A stretch of 64,000 nt of DNA, taken from positions 124,001-188,000 of the forward strand of contig NZ_JAKNSW010000002.1 of assembly GCF_023566355.1 (NCBI RefSeq). The letters are read 5' to 3'. Source of the DNA: Mesoplasma sp. JKS002658. Lineage in GTDB: Bacteria; Bacillota_I; Bacilli_A; Mycoplasmatales; Mycoplasmataceae. The notes beneath the pieces are model-generated. The model was not told where the DNA came from, searched no databases, and was given only the letters and a program-made list of their open reading frames with translations. This document shows positions 147 to 34,860 of the stretch, piece by piece. Position numbers and translations under genes: made by a program. Within the stretch, counting starts at the first letter, position 1. Each line of letters opens with the position of its first letter.

Positions 147-193
147 TCCAAAAGATACAAGTCAGAAAAATGTGTTAATAGGAGGGTAATGAG

Positions 194-2836
194 GTGAAGA
201 AATTACTAGCAATTTTAGGTTCAATAACTTTGGTTACTACCTCAACTTCAACAGTACTTGCTTATGGGGGAGTGTTACAAGTTAAAAAAGCGCTCTCTAC
301 TGCTCTGGTTTATTTCAACAATAGTCAGAATAACTTAGTTGGTGCTAGTTTTCAAAAGGCAAAGTCAGTTATTCTTGATGACCAGTTTGGCATTGATCAA
401 ACCAAGACCTTAGAAATTTTAAACGGTTTTAGTGCTGAAGATAATATTGATAATTATGATGCCAACGATGGAGCTTTGACCACTACTAGTATTTTAAAAG
501 ATGTGATGGAGAAATATTTGGGCGCGAACGTGGTTGATAATAGTGCTGTTACAGGAAAAAACGTCCACCTTGGAGGTCATCTTGGTACCGAGTCTAGTCT
601 TGAGTCTTTACTTCCTGACCAGTTCAAACCTTACCTTCGTCAACTTTTGAGTTGAATTAAAAGCGGTAATTTAGTTAACTCTCCGTTTTGAAACATGAAG
701 GATTTAAACGCCACTTTAACTAATATTGATGATATTTTTAAATCTGGGGGTGAAGGAATTAATTTAATTCTTGAACAATTAATTAAGTTAATTAACGACC
801 AGTTTAATATTGATTTAAGTAGTATTTTAACCACCTGGTTGCCAAAAATTATTAACGTGATTGATAGTGTGATGAATGGTGATAAAATCAGTCAACTTCG
901 CACCTTTTTGCCAAACGCAAACGTTTTGTACCAACAAGCACTTAGTTCTGCAATTCAAGAAATAAGTGATGATAACCTAACTTTTAAAGATTTAAACCAA
1001 AAGTTATTCAGTTTGATTACCCAAATTTTAGAACAAGCAGTTGCTCTAACTCCTGATGCAAATTTAGCTGACCTTGGGGAAGGTATTGATGATCAAGAAA
1101 AATTCTTGATTACTTTTTTAAATCAAGTAATTAGTCAACAAGCTTTGACGATGGTCGATTTAAGTGATCCAACTGCTTTAGGGGGATTGTTAAAACCAGT
1201 GTTTGAGTTCATTATTATTAGTAATATTTATTTTCAACAGTTTGATACTTTGAAATCTTATCAAGTAGTTGATCATAACCATTTGTTTTCAGCAACTAAA
1301 GATAACTACACCTTTTTAAGTGAACTAAAGGATGTTAAGGTTAGTGATAGTGTGGTCTTCAAAGACCAAGGGTTGAATTTAAACTATTTTGTAGCCAACC
1401 TAGACTACTTCCTTGGTTCATTGCAAAATTTTAATCAAGCTAGTGAAGACCGCTTAGAACAACTCTTATTCCTTTTGTTTAACGATGCTTCTAACCCTAG
1501 TCAGAACGGGGATCCCTATTATTTTGATAAAGATTCAAGTTGGTTAGAACACCTTTTTAACGTGGGTTTAGGATTAGGATATTTAAATAATTTAGCTCCC
1601 CAAGCAATTCTAACTATTACTAAAACCCCAGCAATCAAAAGCACAATCTTTAATACTTTAAAACCGATTTTTTTAGGTTTTATTAATGGTGATGATGCTT
1701 CTGGTTTAATCAATTTGATAAACAATCTTCTTCCTTTGCTGCCAACCCTGATTCCTTCCTTAAACCAATTTCCTTGAAAACAAGTTTTAGCAGCGCTTCA
1801 AGAGGTGGTTAAAAATTTAGCTTATCATCCTGATGATAGTAAAAACATGTTTCACTTTCTTTTTAGTGGGAATGGCAATAGTTTGTTTCAAGGTGTCGAA
1901 CTACCAGATAACTTTCAAAAAGTACTTGGTGGGTTATTTGGTAGTGGTGAGAAAAATTTCTTAACATTACTCAACAAACCCTTATTCCAAATCTTTAACT
2001 GGTTAACCCAACAAGGACTTGACATTAAAGGATTTAGCCAGGGAATGATTAATCCTCTTGGTGATAATTACACTTTAAAGTCACTTCCTCAACTTATTAG
2101 CTTATTACATAATTATTTGAATCACCTTGACCCAAACAATTCTAAGAATGCAAATTTGTATATTGACAGTACCAATCCCAATAATTCTTTACAAATTTTT
2201 AATAAAAAAGACATTAAGTTGGAAGTTGATTTGCTTGAACGTTTAATTGGAAAAGATACAGGTGAAAACAACCTTATCTCCCAATTTTTAACCAAATTAT
2301 TTGGACTTGCACCTGATGGTAGTGGGACATTAACTTTAGATGTTCCTGATGCTTTAGAGTATTTAGGTTTTATGGGAAATAGTACTTATCAGCAAGATAG
2401 TTTTTTAGGAGATTTTGTCCAGTTAAGTCTCCCAAATTTAGTTAAAGCAATTACTAATATTGTTGCAAACGGACAAATTCAATTAAGTGATGCTAATGTT
2501 AGTAATTATGATCTTTATGGAGTTGATTTATACCAATTGTTTGCCAAAGATTTACTTGATGTCTTCAATAAATTGAGTAATCCTGCTGATTATTCAGTAC
2601 TGATTTACCAATTATTGACAACTAAGAATGCTTATGAATTGGTGTATGATCCCAAGAAAATTACTTATTTTAGTAAAACTGGGAAAATTTTAATTAAAGG
2701 GTTTAGCTATCAAGTTATTTTTACCAATCCGTTAAATAACTCTCAAACCACATACTGGTTTGAAATTTCACGAAATAGTAATACTGAAGTATTTCACTTT
2801 GATTCTATTATCAATGATAGGATTTTAAATAATTAA
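194..2836 (+). CDS. Large secreted surface protein, lipoprotein paralogue 1 (lipobox Cys replaced by Tyr)
   Basis: An 880-residue protein read through TGA (Trp) at 653 and 1775. The GTG start at 194 sits 7 nt after GGAGGG; the ATG at 189 is in another frame and stops at once. A signal peptide covers residues 1-24, but the lipobox reads V-L-A-Y, with Tyr where the three paralogues downstream have Cys (TAT instead of TGT). As written it cannot be lipidated and would be secreted or held by its signal anchor. Shared landmarks with the next three genes are a D-Q-F-G-I-D segment near residue 60, an H-L-F-S block followed by a YFL-R-LL pattern mid-protein, an LG(Y/F) motif and a beta-rich C-terminus. 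This resembles the mollicute paralogous lipoprotein family called MOLPALP; the family name is inferred from memory. Function unknown. First gene of a run of three with gaps of 21 and 15 nt. Confidence 0.8.
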
Positions 2837-2857
2837 TAAAAGAAAGAAGGTGAGAAG

Positions 2858-5224
2858 ATGCGCAAATTTCTTGTGATCTTTAGTGCTTTAGGTCTAACTA
2901 GCACAATGATTAGTAGTGTAATTGCTTGTGGAAGTAATTCTCACCAACCAGTTGTTGAGGGTAAGGAAAGTCAAACAGTTAAAGATATTCGCGCCGAATC
3001 TCTTCAACAAGTGCAGGGTTATGTTTTAGCTGATGCTTATGGTTTGGATTTAACTAAAACCACCACCACTTTGGATAATTATTATGCTGATAAAAACTAC
3101 TTTAATGCTAATACTTTGAGTCAAGCTAATTTAATTGATGTGCAGGTGAATGGGGTTAAAGGAAGCGATGGAGAATTATTTACTCAATTAGTTGAAATGA
3201 TTTTAAATCAGGGTGATAGCCAAATCAGTCCTATTTTAGCTTTTTTAGACAAATACAAAGCTTTAATTGCTTCGCTTCCTGGAGGTTTGAACACCTTCCC
3301 TTTAGAACAATATTTAGCTTCTTTACCAACAATTATTAATTTAATTGGTCAACAAAACTTGTTAATCGATCCTGCAACGAGTGCTGATAGTATTGCTACG
3401 ACTTTAACCACTTGATATGAAAGTCAACAACTTGATAATGGTTTAACTAATTTTAACCAAGCAACCGATTTAAGCGAACTTGCTGATTTGACTGTGGCAG
3501 AACTACAAAGTAGTTTTTTAGTTTCTTTGACTTCTTTAATCGGTTATGCAATGTATCCTGATAGTTTTACTTCACTAATCACTCCCACTACACTTCCTGA
3601 TAACACGACAGTTAATACTTATAATCCCCAAGCATTAATGAGTGATAATTATGATCAAGCAATGCAAAACTTTTTTAGTTTTGTTTTCAAAAAAGGCGTG
3701 GGGATAACACCACCAAGTGGTTATGCTGTTCAAAGTGGTGGAATGCTTTTTTATTTAGGAAAAACCTTAAAAATTTTAGAAGTATTGCTAAGTCTTTATG
3801 ATGAATGTTTAAATGATGATTTTGTCATTGTTGATGGTACCCACCTTTTTAGCACTACAATTACAAATGTTGATTATTTAGCAATAATTAAAACTAAAAA
3901 AGTTAGTGATCAAGCTATTAGTGAAAAAGGTTTACATTTAGAGTATTTATTAAGTAAGCTTGGTTATTTTTTTAATGATAAAAATGAAGAAGAAAACGGG
4001 TATCGAATTTTAAAACTCCTAAATATTTTCTTAGCATCTGGAGGCTATGAATTTAGTTATTTAAAACAAACTATTCTTGACCTTGTTAATGCCTATAACC
4101 CTACTATTGGGGCAATCCTTGCCTTAAATCCAGATTTATTTAATCCACTTTTTCAAAATTTTGTAACCTACTTATTAGTTCCATTATTTAACAATACTCC
4201 AGCAACCCCAAGTAAGATTCTTAGCGACGATCTTAAAGAACTGTTAAAGCCTTTTTTGTCATTGTTGCCTGACAATTGAAGAAACCTCATTAAATGATTA
4301 GATACCACTGCTGCTCAAAACTTCCTTAATGAACCTTGAACTCAACTTTATCAAGGAAATTGAAATGATTTGGTTGGGCTCTTTGGTGCTAATCTTGATC
4401 CTTTAAACTTTTTATTTGGTGTTGATCACTTAAACTTTCACTTAATTTTTAACCAGTTGTTAGTCCGGAATTTAATGCTTGTTTTTTTTAGTAGTAATCT
4501 TGATTTAGGAAGATTAAGTGATTTAACCTTTGATGGAATGATTAGTCGAATTGTTAGTGATTTAGCAATTCAAAATGAAAACATCAGTGATCAGATAGGA
4601 AACATTATTCCTGTTGATAATATTCAAACAATGATGAAACTCTTGTTTGAAAAGAACTTTATTACTGACACCACCACTAGTAGTGACCAATCCGTGGTTC
4701 ACCAAGTGGTTAGTCATTTAAATGATTTACCCGAAATTTTACCCTTCTTAGGTTATGATTTAAGTCAAAGTGAACCTTATGTTTATTCCCAATCATTGTT
4801 AGGTCAACTTGTTTATTGCTTTTCACCAACTCTCAAAGCTAATTCCACTCCCAGTGCAAATGATGGTAAGGGAGAGTTGCTTAATCTTAATACTTTAAGA
4901 AGTGCTGATCCCACTAACCATTGAGCCCTTAGTTCGGGAATTGGTCGAATACTAGGTGATTTATTAAATGGAACTGATTATCGTGATTTTGTTCTTAACC
5001 AGGTTCTTAACGCTAGTTGAGTTGTAGAAAAAGTGATCTCTAATTATGATCCCACCAATCCTGAGGTTTTATTAAACCAAACTTATAATTTAATTTACAC
5101 TGGTAATGATTATAATTTGGGAGCAATTGCGATTAAAGCAATTAATGCGCAATACCAAATAACTTTTGCTCGAGTGAACGCTAATGAAAAGTTTTCCTTT
5201 AAAAAGTTAGTCCGTTTAGTTTAG
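2858..5224 (+). CDS. Paralogous surface lipoprotein 2
   Basis: A 788-residue lipoprotein joined across several TGA (Trp) codons (3413, 4277, 4298, 4337, 4361, 4922, 5018). ATG start after GAAAGAAGGTGAGAAG. The signal peptide ends in the lipobox V-I-A-C (Cys 24), so it is expected to be diacylated and anchored outside the membrane. It has the family pattern of paralogue 1: a V-L-A-D-A-Y-G segment, T-H-L-F-S followed by LGYFFND and R-I-L-K-L-L, then F-L-G-Y-D and a C-terminal beta-rich tail. It starts 21 nt after paralogue 1 and ends 15 nt before paralogue 3, so the three are probably co-transcribed. No catalytic motif is visible. Confidence 0.85.
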
Positions 5225-5239
5225 AAAGGAGAAGAGTTG

Positions 5240-7756
5240 ATGAAAAAGTTATTATTGTTATTACAAGTGGTTGGTTTAACTCTGATTACAACAACTACGG
5301 TTGTTGCTTGTGGGGTTGGTGGTCAAATCAACCCCAACTACCAAGATGAAATCCAAGTTCCTTTAAGTGAACAAAAAATTGAAATTCAACAATCTATCCT
5401 AGCACGTATGCGGACTTTAATCTTGGATAACGAGTATAAAATTAGTGATTCTGCTTATAAAAGCTATTCTTTGTCACAAAATGCTCAAGATTTAACCAAG
5501 TTGAATCGTGATGCTAAGAAGACAATTGGCAATGTTTTTGAAACTTATTTTGGTTCAACTAATCTAAATGACGCCAGTTATAGTAGCAACATTACTTTAG
5601 ATGGTAGTTTGGGTGATCAGGGTGGAATTTTTAACTTGCTTTTAAGTGGGTTTAATAGTTTCTTACCAAGTGGATTATCAGGAATTCTTGATAAATTGTC
5701 TGGGTTAAGTGATATTCCTCTGCTTGGAGACCTCATAAGTACAATTAATGGTTTCTTGGGTAATTTTCCCCCAAACATGGTGAATAATAGTGGAAAATTA
5801 ATCCAAATTCTTCAAAGTTTAAACTTAACTACTATTGCTGATGGACTTCCTTTGGGAATCGATAAACTTGCTACTCTTGAAGTAAGTGATACCCAGTTAA
5901 GGTTAATCAATTTGTTGCGTCCACTTTTAAAGCAAACAACAATTGATGGTTTTTTTACCATTCTTGCTCAGGGAATTAACTTTGATTTTAGCACTTATCA
6001 AATTAGTGATTTGAGCAGCATTTTTTGAATTGAATTAGTTAATAGTATGGCTTTGTTCAAACAAAGCGATTACCAAATGCTCACTTATACAAATGAGAGC
6101 AGTACAATTCAAGCCCAATTGATTACTGCTGGACAAAGTTTTGGGACGATGTTGGGACAAACAAGTACAACTTCACCCTCTTTTGGTAGTATGATCCAAG
6201 GTGTTGCTTGTTTACTCAAAGCCTTTAGTGCTTTGGGATTAAAAATGACTTTGTTAAACAGCGAAACCAAGCTCTTTGCTCCAATTGATTCTGAACATCT
6301 ATTTAGTAGCGATGATAACACGACTTATTTAACTGCTAAATTAAATGCCACAATTGGAGAAAGTGATTTAGTTAATACTTATCCTACTCTAGCGAAGTAT
6401 TTCAACTTTGGGGAATTTTTTTCAAACTTAGTCTATTTCTTTGACAATGATGCAAGCATAACTCAAGAACGAAGAAGTGCTCGGGTGTTGAAGTTTATTA
6501 ACGTTTTGTTTGCTGACAAAATTACTAATAATAAAGTCAGTTCAAATTCACTTGCTTTTTTCACAGGAATTTTTAGTCAAACTAATCCTGATAGCGGTTT
6601 AAGTGATAATAACCAAATTAGTAGTGCTGCTAGTGAAATTGACCAGTTTTTAACCTCAAGTTTATTAAATAATCAAGCGATTAATTTGCCAAGTAGTAGT
6701 AGCACTACTTTTACAAGTAATGTTATTACTTGATTGCAAACTGATTCTGAATTCTTAGCAACTCCGTTTGCAACCCTTTATAGTGGTGATTTGACTTCAC
6801 TATTTACTTCGACTAATTTTTCTTTGGTGGTTGGCAAAACTTTTGCTGACAAAATTCAAGGAGCATTCCAACAAATCTTTGCTTACCAACGTGATGGCAA
6901 AATCAATCTTGAAAACTTTTTAAATTCAAAATTGCTCAACCTTTTGATTGGTTTTAAAGCTAAGGGATATAGTGCTGAGGATTTGGTTAAAAATAACGGG
7001 TTATTTCCCAATTATGGTGCTTATTATACAAATAAAACTCTAGTTGAATTAATGAATGAGTTTAAAAATGGTTTAAATTTAACTGGTAAAGAAACGATTA
7101 GTCAGCTGACTTACCGTTATTTTGATATTGGTTTATTTAATCAAGTTATTGATGAAGTTTTATATGATAGCGATGGAAAAACAAGTTTATTAACCAGAAT
7201 TCTTGAATATTTAAAAACTTCAGTCTCATCTCGAGCTAAACCAGAGGCAATTCTTAGTGCGCTTGGTTATGAGAATGATTCTGATAAAGGTTATGGTATT
7301 TTGGTGGATAGTTTAGCAGGAAGACTATTACAAGCTTTTGCTCCTGATTTAGTTAAAAACTATGCTAGCGCTGATGGAAGTTTTCTTAGTGTTAATGATT
7401 TGCGAAGACTAAATCCAAATTATACTGACAACTTCCAGTTTTTTGCAAAACAAAGTGCTGAAGTTCTAACCCAGTTAATCAAACCGACCCAATATCAACC
7501 GTGGTTAAACGCGGTTCTTAGTGCCAAACCCGCTGCTTTTGTGATTGATTCTAGTGCTACTAGGTGAACAACAAAGACCGACGGTCTTTATGGGGGTGTA
7601 GTCAAGATTAAGTTTAACCCAAAAGGAATTGTGGTTTTAACTAATCCCAATCCTAAAGTAGTTCTAACTCAGGATGCTTCGATTTATCAAGTGACCTTTA
7701 TGCGAACCAATTTAGGAAAAGTGTTTACAATTACTAATATTCAAAAATTAACTTAG
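5240..7756 (+). CDS. Paralogous surface lipoprotein 3
   Basis: An 838-residue lipoprotein read through TGA (Trp) at 6026, 6731 and 7565 to TAG at 7754. ATG 5240 is preferred (AGGAG 8 nt upstream); the TTG at 5237 directly before it is in frame and only 5 nt from the RBS. The signal peptide ends in V-V-A-C. Family landmarks are I-L-D-N-E-Y, E-H-L-F-S, L-V-Y-F-F-D-N-D with a following R, A-L-G-Y and L-L-Q-A-F-A-P-D-L (compare the C-P-F-S-P-T-L type ending of the same block in paralogue 2). Last gene of the closely spaced trio. Role unknown; surface exposure is inferred from the signal. Confidence 0.85.
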
Positions 7757-7860
7757 ATAAAACCAGAAACACTTTTTAGTGGAATTATGGTAATTATTTC
7801 ATTATAATCAAAGCAAATACAAGATGTTAGTCTGAAAGGATGAAGGAGAGTTGTGTTTTG

Positions 7861-10800
7861 ATGAAAAAATTTTTAGCCATTTTAGCAGCGCTCGGAATTA
7901 GTGGTACTGCTATTATGAGCGTGGTTGCTTGTGGAATAAATCCATATACTAATCCAATTGGAACCAAACCTAACGATCCAACCACTGGCGACCCTACTGA
8001 TTCTGATAATGGAAAAAATGATGATGAAGGCGGATGGAAAAATGGCGGTAATGATTCTGATTCTAACCGTGAAGAGCTACCCGTTCCTCCTATCACTCCT
8101 GATGATCCTGATCCTGCCCCTATAGAAATCAAAAACCTTTATGCTAATAATGATAATATTAAGGAAATTTTTGCCCAAGCAACCAAAAGAACTATTTATC
8201 AAGACCAATATGGTTTTGATCAACAGTATTTAGACCAGCAATTATTTGGGGGACAAACCGGCTTGACCCCAGAACAAGGCAGTTTAAGTTCAAATAGTAG
8301 TCAAGGTGATTTTATTAATTACTATTTGAACCAAATTACAGGAGATGTTAATTTAAATGGTGATAAAGGTTTGGCAAATGCGCTTCCTTTCTTTGATTTT
8401 TTACCTTCACCTGTACAAACAATTTTAACAACAGTCATTAATTTATTAGGAAAAGTAGACTTTGCGACCCCAACTACTTTATTAACTACGCTTTCTTTAG
8501 CAATTAATTCCTTGGGAATGGATAATAATCCGTTGGTTAATACGATTTTGGGTTATGAAAACGCTGCTCCCATTAAAACTTTGACTAGTCTGCTGGACAA
8601 TCCTAAATTAAAAGATTTAGTTTTAAATATTAATAAAAATAGTTGGTTAGATGAAACGCGTGCGAACTATACTTTGTTTGATGCTCAAAAGATTGTAATC
8701 ACAGGAGTAGCTTGAATTCTAGGAATTGGTAATGGAGATGGTGATAAGGCGAACGTACAAGCGTTTGGTGATCATTTAACTGACATTGATCAGTTTGATG
8801 CTTCAGCAGATTATTTTGCTACCTTAATTGGAAAGTTAACCCACAAAGAAGATATCATTGAAAATGAGAATTATGCTAATTACTTGTTCAGTGATCCTGA
8901 AACAAAAGAATTAAACCAAGACCACCTATTTAAGTTGATTAGTAATGGTTATATTATGTTGTCGTTATTTTCAACTTATCTTGGTGCTTTTAACGATTAT
9001 AAAGTGGCTAATCCCACTGATCCAGACCACGTTTTTTCTACCAGTCAATCTAACTGGGAAGTGATTAGTCAGGTCCGAAGTCAGAAATTAGGAGAATTAA
9101 ACCACCAAGGGTTACTAACTATTAATGTTCGTTCCTTAATTTCTAGTTTTGCTTATTATTTAGGTGATTTAGACAAAGAACAAGGACTTTATCGTTTACA
9201 AGCTTTATTGGCAATTTTTTTCTTGGATCGTAATTATGGTAATGGGTGAAAGAGTAATCTTAATAGTGGAACTACTAACTTGGTAATTGACTGGGATGAT
9301 AGTTCGACTAGAATGATTGATCCTAAAGTTAATACCCCCTTGATGACTGTGGTTTCAAAATTAATCATGAATGTCATTGATGTTGATGCTTTGATTCCAG
9401 GATGAATCAGTGGGTTATTGAACCTAATTGGAGTTCCGATTACGAATGCTTTTATTCAAAGTGCAATGTATCAATTATTGTTAAGTTTTTCTACCCAAAA
9501 GAAAATTGAATTATCTAGTTATTGATCTTTTAATCCTGTTAAAAAGTTTGAAGGAGGAACTAAATTTTTAGCTACGGCATTAACAGGAAATGGTGACTGA
9601 ATTAATACTTTTTTGGGTTGAGGAAGAGGTAGTGAAAACAACCCGCTTTATTTCTTATTTAACGAAGATATTCCGGGATGATTAGAACAACTTCCTGACT
9701 TAATGAGTAGTAAGGGTATGATTGGAGTTAGTGGTCAAGCAGATACGGTTCGTAAAGCAATTGCCCCAATCATTGCTAAAATGCGTGAATTGCAAGGAAA
9801 TAATGGTCAATTTAACTTAAGGGTTTTCTTTGGTTTACCGTTGTATCAAGTTTTACAAGTAATTAAACTTGATTCATTTGATCAAGACGCTAACCGTTTT
9901 GCTCCTGGGTTTGCTTCAGAATATACTGACCAATCTTTGTCAAATTTAATGGATTCACTTGCAGAAGTTGCTAATGTTACCAAGATGGATAATAATGCAA
10001 CTTTAAAGAATGGTGGAATTGATATTAACCAAATTCTTGGTCTTTTAGAAACAATGTGAGTTAAAGATGAACAAGGAAATGACACTAACATCATCACCCA
10101 ATTCTTTACTATTTTAAAAACAACCACTGGAAAAGAACGTGTTAATAAAGTCAATGATTTGTTAGGAATTGTTGGTAATAACAAGTATGACACTTCTAAA
10201 ATTTTAGGAAAATTATTAATCTTTTTAATTCCTGGAATTGATCAAAAACCTGCTAACACAGGAACGATTAAAACTAATGATGGAGAAATTCATTGGGTTA
10301 GTGGTGATTATCGTTTGGGTTCACCATTCTTGAATTCAACTAAAAATGTTTTCTTCAAGATTTGAAATGCTTTAAATGTTCCAACCAATTATGATGATGC
10401 CTTGCAAGCAGCTTGAGTAACTGATCAAAACAATCAAGCGTTCAAAGAAGAAGCTACTAGTTACCAATATTTGATTGACGGTGATGAAAGTTCTAGTTTA
10501 ATCGGAATTAACCAAACAATAACTTACCAATGAACTGGAAGTGCAGGAACAGTTCATACAACCAGATACACTTTTAGTTTAACTAGAAAAGATGATCAAA
10601 CTCCCTTTACACTGAACGTTCATCGTGAGGGTAAAGATATTGTAGTTAATCCAGGGTTGGTGAATGCAACTTATGATGATAGCACCAAAACTTTTACTGC
10701 TACTGCCCCAAGTGATGCTTATGCAGGTAAAGAAATTATGTTCTCTTTACCTGATTTAAGTCAGGCTGGTTTAACTGATGCCAACATTGTTGTTAGAGAT

Positions 10801-10971
10801 AGTGCAGGTAATATTGTTGAAAAATCAAGTAATCGTTGAAATGAATGGGTTGCTGGGGATGGAACTAGTGTTGTTTTTCAAGTTAATGATTCTAGTTTAA
10901 ATGGAGCAACTATTCAGATTACAAATCTTAAGGGTTATAACTCAGTTACTTTCAAGATTGTAATTAATTAA
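7861..10971 (+). CDS. Paralogous surface lipoprotein 4 with extended C-terminus
   Basis: A 1036-residue lipoprotein using many TGA (Trp) codons, ending TAA at 10969. Starts MKKFLAIL at ATG 7861; TTG 7858 and ATG 7840 are in frame, but 7840 overlaps the RBS (AAGGAG 7843-7848) and would spoil the signal peptide. Lipobox V-V-A-C. After Cys comes a long linker rich in N, D, G, P and S (to about residue 85), then the shared family body (Y-Q-D-Q-Y-G-F-D, D-H-V-F-S, F-A-Y-Y-L-G-D). The last ~180 residues are beta-rich and resemble an Ig-like module not present in the three paralogues upstream. A TATAAT at 7803-7808 suggests its own promoter. No convincing terminator is seen in 10972-11123. Confidence 0.85.
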
Positions 10972-11123
10972 TGACGATTAAGAAACTAAAAAGCATAGAA
11001 TATTATTAAGGAGAGTGTCAATAATTATTGGCGCTTTTTTGGTGCAACAATTTTTAGATTTTTCCTTATTCTTTAATGGGAGCGAAATAATAATTGTGAT
11101 TAATTAGAAAGTAGGTTCAAATA

Positions 11124-11852
11124 ATGAAAAATAAACCTTTAGTAGCAATTACAGGAGCGAGTGCAGGGATTGGTAAAGAGCTGGCTTTTATCTTTGCTAG
11201 CAATGGTTATCCAGTGTTATTGATGGCCAGAAGAAAGGAGATTTTAGATGGTTATGATGAAATCAGAGAAAAAGTTACTGCAAAAGTGGATGTGACTAAT
11301 TTTGATGAACTTCAAGAGGCAATAACTCTTGGTGAAGCAAAATATGGACCAATTGATTTGATGATTAATAATGCTGGAGTGATGCCATTAGGCGATTATG
11401 TGGCTCAACCACGAACAGAAAAGTACCAAACTCTTGATGTTAATATCAAAGGAGTAATTAACGGGATGGATGCGGTTTTGCCAACAATGATTAAAAACCA
11501 TCACGGTACGATTATTAACATTTCTTCTGTAGCAGGAAGATACTCTTCTTTAAATCATTCGGTCTATAATGGTTCAAAAGCAGCGATTAATCTGTTGACA
11601 GAAGAGGTACGCAAAGAGAATGCAAAAAATAACATCCGCTTTACTTTGGTTGAACCAGGATTGGTCAAAACCGAACTATCCAAAACCACAACCATTAGCG
11701 AGGCTATGGAAATTTATCAAGACCAAATTGATAGTTTAAACGGAGGTTTGGATCCAAAAATGGTAGCAGCAATGATTTTAAAAATTTATGAATTACCTCA
11801 AGAAGTTAACATTAAAGAAGTGATGTTAACTTTAACTGCGCAAATGGTTTAG
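11124..11852 (+). CDS. SDR-family NAD(P)-dependent oxidoreductase
   Basis: A 242-residue classical short-chain dehydrogenase/reductase, of usual family length. Seen: the dinucleotide-binding TGASAGIG at residues 10-17, NNAG at 82-85, a catalytic Ser near 135 and Y148-x3-K152. The subclass and substrate cannot be set; cytosolic alcohol/ketone redox is what the family does. It stands alone, followed by a small terminator. ATG is preceded by an AAAGTAGG-like RBS. Confidence 0.9.
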   Translation: MKNKPLVAITGASAGIGKELAFIFASNGYPVLLMARRKEILDGYDEIREKVTAKVDVTNFDELQEAITLGEAKYGPIDLMINNAGVMPLGDYVAQPRTEKYQTLDVNIKGVINGMDAVLPTMIKNHHGTIINISSVAGRYSSLNHSVYNGSKAAINLLTEEVRKENAKNNIRFTLVEPGLVKTELSKTTTISEAMEIYQDQIDSLNGGLDPKMVAAMILKIYELPQEVNIKEVMLTLTAQMV

Positions 11853-11898
11853 TCAACAATATAAATTAAAGTTTGGTTGGTGGGTTACTAACAAAAAT

Positions 11899-11918
11899 AG
11901 ACCATAAAGGTCTTTTTT
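11899..11918 (+). terminator. Short terminator after the SDR gene
   Basis: Stem AGACC / GGTCT with loop ATAAA and six T. The stem is only 5 bp, so confidence is moderate. Confidence 0.5.
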
Positions 11919-11968
11919 GGTAGAATAGGAATAGTTTCATCAAGAAGATTTCAAAAAATAAGGAAAGG

Positions 11969-13933
11969 ATGAGGATTATCAAACAAAACCAACCATCACT
12001 TCCTGCTTCTAGTACGGATAACTATGAATTAAAAATTAATTCTGAACATTGAGAACGTTTATTAAAAATTGAAGACGATATTAATCTTGATCGAAAAAAT
12101 ATTTTAAATAATTTCACCGCTTTAAAGGCGGTTGATAAACTGAAAAATCATCAAATTGCAGAGTTGAGATTTTTGCACCGACACAAGGTGATTGATAAAA
12201 AAGAGTATCTTTTTGAAAAAAAGTTTATTAACGATCAAGCACTTAGTGCAAAAAACGAGATTCTTGAAGAATTAAGTTACAATACTTCGTTTATTTTAGC
12301 GCGTTATAGGGAGTTAACTGAATTGCAAAAACACACAAGAATTCGGGAAATTAATAAAAGGTTGTCGAAAGCTCAACGGGAAACTAATCGAAAAATTAAG
12401 CTTGATAAAAAACGGGCTAAACGCGGATTGAAAGAAGTTATCACCACCTATAAACAAAATAATGTTAGTGATGAAAAAATTATTGCCTTAGAAAATGAGT
12501 ATATTAATCAGGTAGTTAAAAAAAATATTCACCAGAAGAATAAACAAAAGAAAATTAATGAAGGTTTAGTTAAATCAACAAAATCAACTTCTTATCAAAC
12601 TTTAGCAATTATTATTGCAATTGCTGTACCCACCTTATTATTGGTTAGTTTGTTAACAAATTTCTTAGTTTATATGCCGAAAATTAAAGGGGCTGTTATT
12701 GAAAGTGGTAAGAGTGCTTATCAATTTAATCATTTAACGACTCCAGGATTTATACTAGCGATGGTTTTAGTTTGTTTGACGTTGTTGGTTACTGCTTTTT
12801 TAATTTTTAATTCTACAAAGCGGATTGTAATTGATGCGAATCAAAAAACCACCAAATTAGCTTCAATTGGTTTTGTATCTTCATTTTTTGATATTTTAGG
12901 AATTGGTTCGTTTGCCACTAGTTTAGGAATGATTAAAGCGACTAAAACAATTACCAACGATAAATTGGTTCCAGGAACTTTGAACATCTCTTTTTGTGTA
13001 CCAATTACCATGGAAGCTACTTTTTTGGTGGGGGCAATTAATGTTGATATTGTGACATTGGTGGTCTTGGTGATTTGTGCTGTGATTGGGAGTTATCTTG
13101 GTGCTAGTTTAATTAATAAATTTGATGGAAGAATTGTTAAAATTGTAATTAGCGCAGCACTATTTATCGCTGCAATTATCATGATTTTGACCACTCCTCA
13201 AGTTCATCTTTTAGGTGCTGCTCAAGGAGCAAGAGCGTTAACTTCTTGATGAAAATGATTGATTGGAATTTTAGGTTTCTTGTTGGTAGGAATTTTAATG
13301 AGTTTTGGTGTCGGTAGTTATGCCCCAAGTATTGTTATTTTAAGTTTACTTGGTATGGGAATGATTTATATTGCTCCAATCATGACCTGCTCTAGTGCGT
13401 TTTTAATGCCTGTAACTTCTTATAGATTTTACAAAGATAATAATTATTTACCAAAAACTAGTTTAATTATGATGCTTGGTGGAATTTTTGGCGCAACTAC
13501 TGCTTTCTTGTTCTTTTATGTGGGAATTCAAGCAGGAGTAGGTTTGGATCGCAACGGAATTGTTTATCAATCATTGATTAAATGAATTACTGTTGTGGTA
13601 ATGCTTTACACTTCCTTAACAATGTTTCTTGAATTATTATCTACTCCTCGCACCAAACAAATTAGTGGTCGAAAAAAACACCCTCGTCGAATTCCCTTAT
13701 CAAAGATTGTAAACAAACAAGATTTAGATCAAGAAATTAAAAAGCAATATCAGGCAATGCTTTCTTATTATCACAATGATTTAGATACTAAGAAAATTGT
13801 TGAAGCAGAAAACATTCCGATTAATGAATGAATTAAAACTTCAAATGATAAAAAGACTCAAGATAAAGATAGTTCACCTTTCTCTGACTCACAAGAAAAT
13901 AAGACTACTTCAACTGTGAATAAAAAAACTTAA
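11969..13933 (+). CDS. TSUP (TauE/SafE-like) membrane protein with N-terminal charged coiled region
   Basis: 654 residues, joined across TGA (Trp) at 12050, 13247, 13583 and 13829. ATG 11969 follows AAGGAAAGG at short spacing, so the exact start is uncertain. The first ~190 residues are very charged (many K, R, E) and probably helical and cytoplasmic. Then about nine membrane segments carry two TSUP-like half repeats: S-I-G-F near the start, P-G-T-L-N-I, G-A-I-N-V-D, and in the second half G-V-G-S-Y-A-P-S. Ends with a polar tail. TSUP proteins export or import sulfur-containing or organic anions; the substrate here is unknown. A shorter paralogue follows 32 nt downstream, so the two may work together. 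Confidence 0.75.
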
Positions 13934-25970: not shown

Positions 25971-27902
25971 ATGAAAATTACTTTATTAGATGAAAGTATT
26001 AGGGAGTTTGATAAACCTTTATCAGTAAAAGAAATTGCTGGTCAAATAGCTACTTCTTTGAAAAAAATTACTATTGGTGCCTTAATTAATAATCAACAAA
26101 AAGTTGCTAGTGATTTCATTGTTGAACAAGACTGCAAAATCGAGTTAATAACTACTAAAGATAGCAAAGAATCACTTCTTGATTTTTTTGTTTCCACTAC
26201 TGCTGCAGCAATTACTGCTTATAGTTTGGTTCAAAATTTTCCAGATATTAAAATTGCTGAGGAATTTTATAATCAAGATGAATATGAATTCAGTACAACT
26301 TTTTTAGACAAAGAAACCATTAAACGTGATCGATTACCATTCATTCAAAATAAGCTTGATGAATTAACCAATCAAAGGTTAGTCATTCAAAATAAAAAAA
26401 TTACTGTTTCAAGTGATTTGAATTTAAATACTTATCAACTTCATTTAGCAAATAAGGCAATTAGCGAAAGAGGTTATGCAATTTTAACTACAATTAATAA
26501 AGAAAACTTTATTTTTTCTGAACCAGTTTGTGTAGAGGAGAAATTAGTGAAAAAAATTAAGTTATTAGATCTTTCTGGTTCGTATTGACTAAACGATGCT
26601 AGTAATGTTATGCTACAAAGATTGCATGGATTGGCTGGAGTTTCTCTTGACCAATTGGAAAAGAAACAATTAATCCTTGAAGAACGTCGTTTATCAGACC
26701 ACCGTTCGATTAATAAACAGTTAGAAATTTTTCATTTTGACCAATTGATTGGTCAAGGTTTACCAATCTGATTACCAAATGGAGTTGCTCTAAAAGAACA
26801 AATTAAAACTTACCTTAAAGAAAAAGAATGAGAATATGACTATGTGCCAATTGAAACTCCCGTCATCGGAACATTAGATCTTTATAGAATTAGTGGACAT
26901 TTGAGTCATTATAATGAAGATATGTTTCAACCTTTTAAAGCGAGAAATGAAGAGTTTATTTTAAAACCGATGTCTTGTCCTCACCACATTGCTGTTTACC
27001 GCCAAAAACAACGTTCTTATCGTGAATTGCCTTTGCGTTATTCTGAACATGCCTTACAACATCGTTATGAATCTAGTGGTTCTTTAACGGGTTTAGAACG
27101 GGTTAGAGCAATGGAATTAACCGATTCTCACATTTTTGTTCGTCCCGATCAAATTGAGTCCGAATTTAAATCAATTTATAGGTTGATTGAGGAAGTTTTA
27201 AAAACTTTTAAGATTAAAATTGATTATTTAAGTTTTTCAGTTCGTGATCCAGAAGACAAGGAAAAATATTTCCAAGATGACCAAATGTGAAATAAAGCTG
27301 AAGCAGAGTTGGAAAAAGTTTTGAAAGACTTAAACTTGAATTATAAAAAAATGGTTGGTGAGGCAGCTTTTTATGGACCCAAATTGGATATCCAAGCTAA
27401 AACTGCACAAAGTCACGAAATTACGATTGCCACCATTCAATTAGACTTTTTGTTGCCACAAAAATTTGATTTAACTTATGTTGATGATAATGGTGGTTTG
27501 AGTCGCCCTATCATGATTCACCGTGGTTTGATTGGAACTTATGAGCGTTTCATTGCTACTTTATTAGAACAAACAAAAGGCAACCTACCACTTTGATTAG
27601 CGCCAATTCAAATCGAAATTATTCCTGTTGGTGACGAGGAAAGTGAAAAGTATGCTAAAAGAATTCAAAAGAATTTAAAAACTGATTATATTCGTACGCA
27701 TTTAGATAATCGTGATGAAAGATTAAGTTATAAAATTCGCGATGCTCAAATTCATAAAATTCCTTATCAATTAGTTTTAGGAAAAAAAGAGATTTCAGAT
27801 AATACTATCACTTATCGAAAATATAATAGTGAAGAGCAGATTACTGTTTCTTGTGACGAGTTTTATTTACTAATTAATCAAGAAATTAAAGAGAAAATGT
27901 AA
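25971..27902 (+). CDS. thrS: Threonyl-tRNA synthetase with degenerate editing site
   Basis: 643 residues, full length, joined over TGA (Trp) codons. N-terminal TGS domain (1-60), an N2 editing-type domain (~65-230), class II catalytic core with M-S-C-P-H-H (Zn-binding Cys), [11 protein letters not shown] and D-S-H-I-F, then the anticodon-binding domain. The editing residues are gone: the usual R-H-S-T-A-H reads V-S-T-T-A-A (74-79), and the usual C-R-G-P-H block reads F-S-E-P-V (182-186). Aminoacylation should work, but removal of Ser-tRNA-Thr should not. Editing loss in mollicute synthetases is established for other species. Own promoter; terminator shared with the recombinase. Confidence 0.96.
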
Positions 27903-27934: not shown

Positions 27935-28666
27935 CTAGTCGAAGTGATTTTCTAATTCTTTAATGATATCACTGCTCGTAAAGTGTAAATATCGAGCTGT
28001 GGTTTCTATTTTTGAATGACCCATAATCATGCTTACAATCTTGATGTTTGCCCCCTTACGAATTAAATTAGTACAAAAAGATCTTCTGAAAGTATGAGGA
28101 GTTACTCAATTTGGTCAATAATCTTTAATTAGTTGATAAATCTGTTTCTTACTATATTTATTATATTTTTCAAAATTAATATTATTAATTGGTTTTAAAA
28201 TTGGTATTTCTCGATATTTCATTCCTTTACCAAAGATAATTAAAGAATTTTTATTCTTATTGTACTTTAATTGTTTTAATTCAGAAATTCTTATACCGGT
28301 ATAATAAAGAATTTTGAATAGATCTTTAACTTCTTGTTTTTTTACTGTTTCCACTATTGTCTCAAACATTTGATTATTGATTGTATTAAAGAAGACATTG
28401 CTTATTGAAGGTATTTTTATAGATTCAATTTCGTCTAAGAATTTACATTTACTATAACGTAAATAACTTAAAATAACATGCTTTTTAAATTGAACTGTTG
28501 CTGGTTTATATTTACTTACTTGTGATTTTAAATATTTTGATGTGTTGAATAAAGTGATCGTTTTTCCTCCTAAAAACTTAAAAAAATCGGTTAAAGCATA
28601 TCTGTAACTATAGATTGTGTTCTTTGAATAATTTTGTTTTTCTAAATATCTGATAAATTTTTCCAT
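27935..28666 (-). CDS. Tyrosine recombinase (Xer/integrase family), likely DNA invertase
   Basis: 243 residues, read through two TGA (Trp) codons near the C-terminus (reading TGA as stop cuts off half of the active site). A SAM-like N-terminal core-binding domain (1-90) precedes the catalytic domain. All catalytic residues are visible: R126 (T-G-I-R), K147 (F-G-K-G), H191-x2-R194 (P-H-T-F-R-R), H217 (M-G-H-S-K) and nucleophile Y226 (T-A-R-Y). The protein is short, like Xer-type and phase-variation invertases. It lies next to a methyltransferase segment bounded by inverted repeats with tyrosine-recombinase core-site form, so it is the obvious candidate to invert it (inference). Start GAGG-CGCC-ATG. 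Confidence 0.9.
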
Positions 28667-28759
28667 GGCGCCTCATCGATAGAATAGGAAAATTTATGCA
28701 TTTTTTCCCATCATCTTTTCTTAAAATAATTTTTTTAGCTTTTTAGGTAGAATATATTT

Positions 28760-29941
28760 CTAAAGAAATCTATAATGCATCTTATAGATTCAATTGATAT
28801 TTTTTAGTGAGATATTTGGCCTACCATTTTTATCTAAAACGCTGATAATTCCAGCGTTTGGATGCCGATCCTGCTTAGTGGTTAATGTAGCACTCAAAAT
28901 TGCGCAATTTTCTTTAAATTGACTTTTTTTGTTTTTATGTTTATAAATATCACGTTCTGTTTTACATTCGGAAAATAGTAGAGGATTGTTTTCATACATC
29001 TTTATTCTAGAACTTGTTCGACGAGGAATTGAATCGATAGCTTCGTGGTTATATTTCGAATTTTTATAGTTTGTTTTCAAAATTTTATTTAAATCTTTTT
29101 TAGGAAAATAAGTTAATCGGTCGTATTCTTCTTTTAGTGCTTTGGCTTCGGAAATAATTTTTTCTCTTAATTCGAGATTGCTTTTTTCTCGTTCTTTAAA
29201 GGTGTCAATAAAGTTAATTTTTGAACCTTCATAAACACTTAAAGCGATTACACGCTTTCTTTTTTGAGGAATTCCAAAATCTTCACTAGATAAAATATAA
29301 GTTTGTGTGCAATAGTTTAATTTTTTTAGTTCTTCTAATCATTTTTTATAGTTTTCAATATGTTCTGGGGAAAGAATATTTGTCACGTTTTCTAAGATTA
29401 AAAATTTGGGTTTAATATCTAAGGCATTTAATTCAATTAAGATTCTTTCAACTTCTCAAAGTAAACTTGATCTTGAACCCGATCCTTTGGTCATTCCTTG
29501 ACTCGGATGGTGCAAAGAACTAGCGGATGACAAATCTTGACATGGAAAAGAATAAGTTATTACATCAATATTTTCAGCGATGCCAATTAAATTTCTTCCT
29601 GTTATTTTGGTGATGTTACCTAGATTATTATTAGACACGTAACTTTCATATAAAAGCGAGACAAATCTATCACCTTTTTTAACTATTTTTTGAATATCAA
29701 TTGATTCTTTGGAATCTAATGAATGAATAAAATTCGATAAATAATCAATTTTCTCTTCTAATGATTTCTTGGACTTGTCTTTTTTATTTTTCATTGCATT
29801 GTATGAAATATTAGCAAAGCAATCTCATTCACTTGTTGCCACTATTTCAAAATCAAAATTTTCAATTAATTCAGAGAGCGTTTCAAGTGCTTTTCTTTGT
29901 GAACCAATTCCAGCAAATGCCTCAAAAACTTTAAATTTCAT
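28760..29941 (-). CDS. C5 cytosine DNA methyltransferase, truncated in this orientation (OFF state)
   Basis: 393 residues before TAG at 28762-28760, joined across TGA (Trp) codons. C5-MTase motifs seen: I (F-A-G-I-G, 9-13), E-W-D at 38-40, IV with catalytic Cys 134 (F-P-C-Q), VI (L-E-N-V, 183-186), VIII (G-I-P-Q-K-R-K-R, 223-230), then a target-recognition region. Motifs IX and X, needed for fold and activity, are missing: the frame runs through inverted repeat 28763-28790 (encoding I-Y-K-M-H-Y-R-F-L) and stops. They lie on the + strand beyond the other repeat (30151-30330), in the right frame. Inverting the segment would give 452 residues. ATG 29941 lacks a good RBS; in-frame ATG 29980 lies just after TAGAAAGGGA and is an alternative start. 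No restriction enzyme partner is seen. Confidence 0.9.
28763..28790 (-). repeat. Inverted repeat, left recombination site
   Basis: A perfect 28-bp reverse complement of 30123-30150. Inside lies a 24-bp core: 9-bp arms AATCTATAA / TTATAGATT around the spacer GATGCA (read on the - strand). The identity ends sharply at both sides. It is part of the methyltransferase coding frame. Confidence 0.95.
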
Positions 29942-30122
29942 AATAAAATTATTGACTGATTTCTTTTGGAGAACAATCATTCCCTTTCTACGAAAAACTT
30001 TTATTTTGTTTACTGGATAAATTAATTAGGTTAAAAAAGAATTATTTTTCGAATTGTAATGATATGAAATGAAGGTAGAAATTTTTGAAATTTATCTGTA
30101 AAATGATAATTAGTTTTTTAGT

Positions 30123-30150
30123 AATCTATAAGATGCATTATAGATTTCTT
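30123..30150 (+). repeat. Inverted repeat, right recombination site
   Basis: Left arm AATCTATAA (30123-30131), spacer GATGCA (30132-30137), right arm TTATAGATT (30138-30146), plus TCTT to 30150. Arms of 9 bp around an asymmetric 6-bp spacer are typical of tyrosine-recombinase crossover sites such as Xer sites; the opposite direction of the two spacers dictates inversion, not deletion. Confidence 0.95.
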
Positions 30151-30330
30151 ACTCCTAGGGAATGTTATTTATTGATGGGTTTTTCAGAAAAAGATTATGA
30201 ATGCATTAAAAGTACTGATTTAGTCTCTAAGCCCGTTATGTATCGTCAGGCGGGCAATTCAATTGTGGTTAATGTTTTGGTCGCTGTTTTTAATTACATT
30301 TATGTGTTAACACAAAAAAACCAGCTTTAA
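30151..30330 (+). pseudogene. Detached C-terminal module (motifs IX-X) of the C5 methyltransferase
   Basis: 59 codons and a stop. T-P-R-E-C-Y-L-L-M-G-F is motif IX (with the R-F-L before it supplied by the repeat) and Y-R-Q-A-G-N-S-I-V-V-N-V is motif X. It has no start or RBS of its own; upstream the frame meets TAG at 30076. It is intact, not decayed, which suggests it is kept under selection as a switchable exon-like cassette. The stop codon overlaps the stop of the convergent gene at 30327. Confidence 0.88.
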
Positions 30331-30348
30331 AAAGCTGGTGTTGTTTTT
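30321..30348. terminator. Terminator at overlapping convergent stops
   Basis: Stem CCAGCTT / AAGCTGG with a 4-nt loop, then a T-rich tail on the + strand and an A run (T on - strand) to the left. The loop region contains both the + strand TAA (30328-30330) and the - strand TAA (30329-30327). Confidence 0.8.
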
Positions 30349-31387: not shown

Positions 31388-33115
31388 TTGGCTAAAGTAT
31401 TAAAAGGGATTGGAGCAAGTCGCGGCATTGCTTTAGGAAAAGTTTTACTTTTAAAAGAAGAACAATTGGTTATTCCTAACGATAAAATCAAAGATGTTGA
31501 AGGAGAGGTTCAAAAATTTAAACAAGGCGTTCAAGCCAGTTTGAAAGATTTAGAAAACTTAGTAGAAATCACTACTACCAAATTAGGTGCTGAAAAAGCA
31601 GCAATTTTTGGTGCACATGAAGAAATTGTTCAAGATCCTGCAATTGCTCAGGATGTTGAAGAATTAATTAAAAATGAACAAAAAAATGCTATACAAGCTG
31701 TAAAACAGGTTTTTGATAAGTATCATCAATTGTTCTTGAAGATGGATGATCCCTACTTTAAAGAACGAGCAAGTGATGTGAACGATGTTGCTAATCGTTT
31801 AATTAAACACCTCTTAGGAGTTAATATTGTTGATCTTTCTACAATTAATGAGGAAGTCATCATTGTCAGTGATGACTTGACCCCTTCTCAAACTGCTCAA
31901 TTGGATAAAAAGTTTGTTAAAGGTTTTGTTACTAACATTGGAGGAAGAACTTCGCATGCAGCAATTATGGCGCGTAGTTTGGAACTTCCGGCTGTTTTGG
32001 GTTTAAAAAATATCACCGAAATTGTTACTGATGGAGCGATGATTAGTGCTAATGGAACCACTGGAGAGGTGATGATTGAATTAGATACTGATGATATTGC
32101 TGTTATCAAAAAAAACCAAGTTGAGTTTGAAAAAAACGAAGCTTTATTAAAAACTTATGTTAACCAACCAACCATCACTCGTGATCAACATAAAGTATTG
32201 GTGGAAGCGAATATTGGTAAGCCAGCTGATTGTGAGGCAGTTTTAAAAAACGGTGGAGAAGGTATTGGTTTATTCCGTTCTGAATTCTTGTATATGGAAA
32301 ATGATCACTTTCCTACTGAAGAAGAACAATTTCAAGCTTACAAGGAAGTTATCGACCAAATGCATGGAAATTTAGTGATAATTCGTACCCTGGATATTGG
32401 TGGTGATAAAAGACTATCTTATTATCAATTTCCTTCAGAGATGAATCCCTTTTTAGGTTATCGGGCAATTCGTTTTTGTTTAGATCATCCAGATATTTTT
32501 AAAACTCAATTGCGTGCATTATTACGGGCTTCAGCTTTTGGGTCGTTAGGAATTATGTTTCCAATGATTGCTACAATTGAAGAGTTTAACCAAGCCAAGG
32601 CTTTGGTTGAAGAATGTAAGGCAGAATTAATTGCAGCAAATATCAAGTTTGATCAACAAGTGCAAGTAGGAATGATGGTTGAAATTCCAGCCGCAGCAGT
32701 GAATGCAAAAAACTTTGCTAAAGTGGCGGATTTCTTTTCGATTGGTACTAATGACTTGATTCAATATTCAATGGCTGCTGATCGAATGAATCAATCGGTT
32801 GCCTATTTATATCAACCACTAAATCCTTCGCTTTTAAATTTGATTAAAATGACTATTGATGGTGCTCATACAGAAAATAAATGAGTAGGGATGTGTGGAG
32901 AAATGGCTGGTGATCAATTGGCGATTCCTTTATTACTAGGAATGGGATTGGATGCATTTTCAATGAGTGCTACTTCAATTTTAAAAACACGTTCAATTAT
33001 TAATAATCTAGATTATCAAACTGCTCAAACTTTGTCCAATCAAGCATTAATGCTTTCTACAAGTAAAGAAATTGAAAGTTTGGTTCAAGCCTTTCTAAAG
33101 AAAAATAATCTTTAA
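31388..33115 (+). CDS. ptsI: PTS enzyme I (phosphoenolpyruvate-protein phosphotransferase)
   Basis: 575 residues, standard length. Transfers phosphate from PEP to HPr to power sugar uptake. Seen: the active-site [10 protein letters not shown] with His 190, the PEP-binding [23 protein letters not shown] and the active-site Cys in [11 protein letters not shown] start at 31388, 7 nt after AGGAGGT; one TGA (Trp) at 32882. ptsH is not next to it. Confidence 0.97.
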
Positions 33116-34512: not shown

Positions 34513-34860
34513 ATGGCTTATTTAAATGAACAAACTAATGAAATTATTTTTAATAAAACCGATCTGATTAATGCTTGAGCAAATGCACCTAAGATTAGTG
34601 ATGCTAATCCTGATGAGTTTCGAGTATGTATGTACTGCCAATTTCCGATGAAGAAAAAGCATTATGTTGCTAACCATCGCTTGAAACATCCTACCGATGC
34701 TTGAGCAATTGATTTAATTAATTTAAAGAAACCAAAATTGGTTGGGAAAAATCTTTTCGCTATTCATGCTGGGTGTTTTGGTTTACGTCGACAAGAAAAT
34801 CAAACTCGGAGATTGAAACGCTATAATCGCACAAAATGATTGATGCCCAAGAATGAGTAA
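34513..34860 (+). CDS. Small Cys/His protein, possible zinc-binding
   Basis: 115 residues from ATG 34513 (RBS AGAGGGGAGA) to TAA 34858, with TGA (Trp) codons at 34576, 34702 and 34840. It has C-M-Y-C near residue 39-42 followed by H-Y-V-A-N-H and K-H, a spacing like a C2H2 zinc finger, and a later H-A-G-C. The C-terminus is basic (R-R-L-K-R-Y-N-R). No family recognised; a nucleic-acid-binding or ribosome-linked role is only suggested by the basic tail and its neighbours. Confidence 0.75.

Follow-up and report, generated by a model that had tools for sequence, protein, structure and literature searches.

Inversion of hsdS genes is established for HvsR of Mycoplasma pulmonis and PsrA of Streptococcus pneumoniae, and in the pneumococcal case the recombinase gene lies within the locus itself (PMC4948785). 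Features of these systems that recur, or would recur, at the locus described here are a tyrosine recombinase, inverted repeats inside DNA-modification genes, and methylation that differs from cell to cell (PMC4948785). In hsdS systems, inversion mainly swaps the recognition domains of HsdS, which serves a multi-subunit enzyme. In contrast, at the present C5 methyltransferase locus the catalytic core would be joined to, or parted from, motifs IX-X of one polypeptide, and there is no alternative module, so that the outcome would be ON/OFF. Random ON/OFF switching is also known for type II and type III methyltransferases of M. agalactiae, where it proceeds via repeat tracts (PMC9465063). Such simple-repeat phasevarions of mycoplasmas likewise give clonal ON/OFF states of a methyltransferase, but the mechanism is a frameshift that follows tract length rather than site-specific inversion. 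Also related are intragenic invertons, which were reportedly described by Chanin et al. in 2024 as invertible segments with a site in coding sequence. Compared with these, the gene (a C5 methyltransferase), the adjacent recombinase, and conservation in two species are defined here. An initial annotation of this DNA had considered a C5 methyltransferase split by its own inversion site to be undescribed, and a non-exhaustive search of the open-access literature, with most subscription papers outside its range, likewise returned no report of a C5 methyltransferase switched by intragenic inversion.

The window, i.e., the whole 64-kb stretch that was analysed, comes from Mesoplasma sp. JKS002658 (767,909 bp in 4 contigs, GC 32.7%) and is Mollicute DNA in which UGA encodes tryptophan (code 4). 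The locus is flanked by thrS (ending at 27902) on one side and a ptsI-like gene (starting at 31388) on the other, both names having been assigned from translated sequence. From thrS to the ptsI-like gene, the order is recombinase (-), left repeat, methyltransferase N part (-), right repeat, C module (+), a hairpin, and a 310-aa protein that has no Pfam match (Table 1). It is very probable that these parts make up a dedicated switch that turns a single-polypeptide C5 DNA methyltransferase ON or OFF by inversion.

Table 1. Features of the methyltransferase locus, in positions of the window
Feature	Position	Strand	Basis
Tyrosine recombinase, 243 aa, presumed invertase	27935..28666	-	Code-4 ORF; Phage_integrase; R-K-H-R-H-Y; M. 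lactucae homologue
Left recombination site, 28-nt repeat	28763..28790	-	Dyad AATCTATAA-GATGCA-TTATAGATT (9-6-9) at 28767-28790
Putative invertible segment, 1,388 bp counting both repeats	28763..30150		Inverted-repeat bounds and in-silico inversion
C5 methyltransferase N part, 393 aa, OFF form	28760..29941	-	Motifs I-VIII and recognition region; ORF and Pfam
Right recombination site, 28-nt repeat	30123..30150	+	Dyad at 30123-30146
Detached C-terminal module, motifs IX-X, 59 codons plus stop	30151..30330	+	In-frame joining upon inversion; Pfam; homologue alignment
Terminator-like hairpin, end of C module	30320..30339		Pattern fits either strand

The initial annotation had placed a complete tyrosine recombinase next to a 1388-bp segment with perfect 28-bp inverted repeats. 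Both were reproduced, the former in its ORF, Pfam profile and catalytic residues, and the latter in its coordinates and in the 100% complementarity of the two inverted repeats. Exactly two copies of the 28-nt repeat exist in the genome, even if 3 mismatches are allowed. The runner-up perfect inverted repeats in the window measure 16 nt, the longest inverted repeat in 30 shuffles of the window was 19 nt, and the chance expectation for one of 28 nt is ~2e-7. Within the site, 9-nt arms (AATCTATAA and TTATAGATT) flank a non-palindromic 6-nt spacer, GATGCA, and two arms around an asymmetric spacer are the anatomy expected of a tyrosine-recombinase core site, as known for the Xer family. The arrangement as a whole, with inverted core sites bounding a segment and a recombinase nearby, is that of an invertible element.

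A TATAAT is also present in each site, on the strand reading into the segment. When a promoter was sought inside the site, where the TATAAT falls in the dyad, no convincing -35 element was found, and a promoter scan did not rise above shuffles. A comparison of the 18-nt site core with viral contigs gave 20 single matches and 0 paired ones.

As had been claimed for the methyltransferase, motifs I-VIII are found in the N part, together with the recognition region. It runs from an ATG at 29941 (-) for 1179 nt until the left repeat ends, and meets a stop codon right after it. Motifs IX-X lie intact on the + strand outside the right repeat, and the proposed reading phase (1179 nt, then 60 codons, namely 59 plus a stop) was recovered by in-silico inversion, which yields a single 452-aa ORF at 28972-30330. 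An alternative in-frame ATG upstream, at 29980, is possible, in which case the joined protein would be 465 aa. Against the Pfam DNA_methylase profile (PF00145), the N part covers positions 30-252 and the C module positions 273-322 of 324, with scores of 129.5 and 36.6 bits, whereas the joined protein gives one continuous match over positions 30-322 with a score of 172.8 bits (E=1.7e-50). Motifs I-X are represented in the in-silico ON protein, where FAGIGS, PCQ, ENV, QKRKR, TPREC, and QAGNSI are visible, and the OFF protein is without motifs IX-X. The claim that the split lies inside motif IX held as to the motif and was refined as to the place, which is its N-terminal edge (KMHYRFL / TPREC).

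The closest solved structures for both halves are enzymes of the M.MpeI/M.SssI type. Since the C part of the joined protein matches M.MpeI (8c56, 4dkj) over residues 333-389 out of 395, the cut separates the recognition domain from motif IX. In 15 aligned homologues, one uninterrupted gene runs across the cut point. The initial annotation had named as a refutation an alignment that shows the 30151-30330 module not to be a continuation of this methyltransferase; the module instead aligns with the corresponding part of these 15 intact homologues and supplies the missing end of the Pfam profile.

Several other assignments were considered. A CG specificity, as the match to M.MpeI might imply, is not supported, because the recognition region (query about 297-387) fails to align with that enzyme. 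A shufflon with two alternative C-terminal modules was dropped, as no second motif IX-X exists beyond the left site; it is also disfavoured by the OFF tail, which is absent in JKS002658 and unconserved in M. lactucae. Finally, an invertible type I restriction-modification (RM) system of the hsdS kind does not fit, since the switched gene belongs to PF00145 rather than HsdS (PF01420) and no hsd genes adjoin the locus.

The recombinase matches Pfam Phage_integrase (PF00589) with E=3e-20, and the catalytic residues of a tyrosine recombinase are all there (R126, K147/K150, H191, R194, H217, and Y226). It shares 63% identity with the recombinase at the corresponding position in Mesoplasma lactucae, which is also 243 aa long. 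Among 320 genomes of the order, a relative this close occurs only in JKS002658 and M. lactucae, and the next full-length relatives are 34-41% identical. In the tree, the two proteins are sisters (support 100/99) and form a two-member clade of their own. The hsdS-associated recombinases of the same family, which sit between opposed hsdS genes, share just 32-38% identity with it. From these comparisons, it appears that a C5 enzyme recruited a recombinase of the broad hsdS-associated type.

The initial annotation had also proposed a search for the locus in related genomes, and this turned up a diverged second case, also OFF, in M. lactucae ATCC 49193 (NZ_CP023668.1), the only other Mesoplasma genome compared. 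There, the same system is located at another chromosomal place, beside an aquaporin-like gene. The methyltransferase N part is 50% identical to that of JKS002658 and is cut at the same residue, while the C module lies on the opposite strand 3.9 kb off, for a segment of 3.9 kb versus 1,388 bp. In-silico inversion produces 437 aa in frame. The site core has exactly two matches in each of the two genomes, and its other matches carry 2-3 mismatches, which is the level of a reversed-pattern control. The M. lactucae sites have an identical core of only 15 nt, with flanks that match partly, and this counts against the switch reading. The anatomy of the switch is nonetheless kept despite a differing place, a differing segment length, and the change of half of the methyltransferase residues.

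The M. lactucae segment additionally holds a 230-aa gene and a gene for a 680-aa GmrSD-type protein (GmrSD_N 3.8e-28, GmrSD_C 1.6e-15), which together occupy 8310-11034 of the M. lactucae stretch (L023). The start of the GmrSD ORF overlaps the right site, with a TATAAT seven bases upstream, and could be a leaderless start. Immediately outside the right site (11343-13605 of the same stretch), there is a 265-aa gene of unknown function as well as an Eco57I-like methyltransferase, and the two might form a type II RM pair.

To place the split in a wider context, N parts and C modules among the matches listed in the 320 genomes were paired if they were ≤5 kb apart. On this basis, in 108 of 110 paired loci (95 genomes; among the matches listed) the two halves shared a strand and their matched stretches were ≤631 bp apart. 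Opposite-strand halves were found, among the matches listed, at just the two remaining loci, those of JKS002658 and M. lactucae, both of which lie beside the recombinase. The two split methyltransferases are sisters in the tree (support 99/96), and the sequences are consistent with one origin of the recombinase-methyltransferase pairing. A scan of genome contigs with the methyltransferase pair detected nothing besides M. lactucae, and phage and plasmid searches retrieved distant relatives only. That the split locus is carried by only two species among those surveyed counts against the switch reading.

The locus could alternatively be a frozen relic, in which one past inversion broke the gene and left a non-switching pseudogene beside an idle recombinase. 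The OFF state of both assemblies, in neither of which an ON junction was seen, favours such a relic and counts against a switch. However, dN/dS comes to 0.28 in the C module, 0.26 in the N part, and 0.24 in the recombinase at dS values greater than 1, and even as rough values (dS is near saturation and the C module is short) these ratios indicate purifying selection on all three parts, the 59-codon module included, which argues that the module is not a relic. Decay is also no greater than in intact homologues: the identity of the C module between the two species falls on the line set by 105 intact-homologue pairs (z +0.94). The detached module is not decaying; a useless fragment would lose its frame and motifs over such a distance. 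Furthermore, the repeats of JKS002658 are still identical at 28/28 positions, and the architecture of the state is alike in both species. A relic is therefore improbable. The earlier reading of an ON/OFF switch is supported by the second species, by a split that occurs only beside this recombinase, and by the conservation of the detached module.

In the switch as envisaged, the recombinase would act on the two inverted 9-6-9 dyad sites and flip the intervening segment. In the ON orientation, the catalytic and recognition part would be fused in frame to motifs IX-X, giving the full 452-aa enzyme. In the OFF orientation, as assembled, translation would end directly behind the site, leaving a protein that lacks motifs IX-X. 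We infer that inversion takes place and is performed by this recombinase, and that the OFF form is inactive and the ON form active. Clone-mates would then differ in cytosine methylation across the genome.

Whether the OFF form could work as one of two subunits is informed by related enzymes. M.AquI is a natural case of a split C5 enzyme, with motifs I-VIII and part of the variable region on one chain and the rest with motifs IX-X on the other (PMC3404938). By analogy, separate chains might assemble at the present locus so that the assembled orientation is active too, and translation of the C module could begin from a TTG (30085) or from an ATG inside the repeat. In M.SssI, however, fragment 1-304 is inactive alone and the pair [1-304]+[304-386] does not complement, although other split points do (PMC3404938). 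Judging from the M.MpeI alignment, the present split would fall in the same distal region as the M.SssI split at 304. The C module also has no convincing promoter, promoter-like sites being fewer than in shuffles, and a two-subunit enzyme would leave the recombinase, the inverted sites, and the exact restoration of frame unexplained. It is thus very unlikely. That the recombinase and sites serve the integration and excision of a mobile cassette with the methyltransferase as cargo is hardly credible, even though the module occupies differing chromosomal places in the two species and phages also have tyrosine recombinases of such size, because the sites are inverted rather than direct, the recombinase is outside the bounded segment, the site falls within coding sequence and the frame is preserved to either side of it in each species, and no other element genes are present.

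Under the switch reading, transcription in the ON orientation would run toward the terminator at 30320-30339, and in the OFF orientation toward the recombinase. The recombinase is co-directional with the OFF gene and lies 93 nt downstream of it (63 nt in M. lactucae, with the same polarity). As no terminator was detected between the two, this layout suggests a higher level of recombinase in the OFF state. Speculatively, read-through in the OFF orientation, absent in ON, may feed the recombinase.

If the switch reading is true, it would be the first known case of a single-polypeptide C5 methyltransferase switched by inversion within its own gene, by means of a small system of one gene, one recombinase, and two sites. 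A further proposal, which is put forward tentatively and is rather doubtful as a whole, is that of a distinct class of epigenetic switch. In it, a C5 methyltransferase would have co-evolved with its own invertase, the site would double as coding sequence at the boundary of the recognition domain and motif IX, read-through would supply more recombinase in OFF, and the GmrSD-type nuclease gene in the M. lactucae segment would physically link methylation state and restriction. Transcription factors are few in Mollicutes, and for a clone, random switching of DNA methylation is one means of holding several states. M. lactucae is culturable and plant-associated, and locked-ON and locked-OFF cells could be used to test the role of 5-methylcytosine.

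Recombinase control of methylation would here reach a second class of enzyme in a genome that already has an hsdS locus of invertible layout. That hsd locus of JKS002658 (C2:63000-76000, at 167-7962 therein) comprises hsdR-like and hsdM genes, a tyrosine recombinase, and, to either side of the latter, two hsdS genes in opposed orientation; its inverted repeats are perfect over 29 nt within 46 nt, and the layout is a known invertible one. Another region (C1:286000-300000, at 5289-10110 therein) contains two intact C5 methyltransferases arranged head to head and an Eco47II-type endonuclease gene, followed by a 616-aa gene whose product resembles an ATPase that ends in a TIR-like part, and represents a further RM island. 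In the window itself, a small CxxC/HNH-like protein is encoded at 34513-34860, with rplT on one side and an aquaporin-like gene on the other; a small HNH-like gene also lies ~3 kb upstream of the aquaporin-like gene in M. lactucae.
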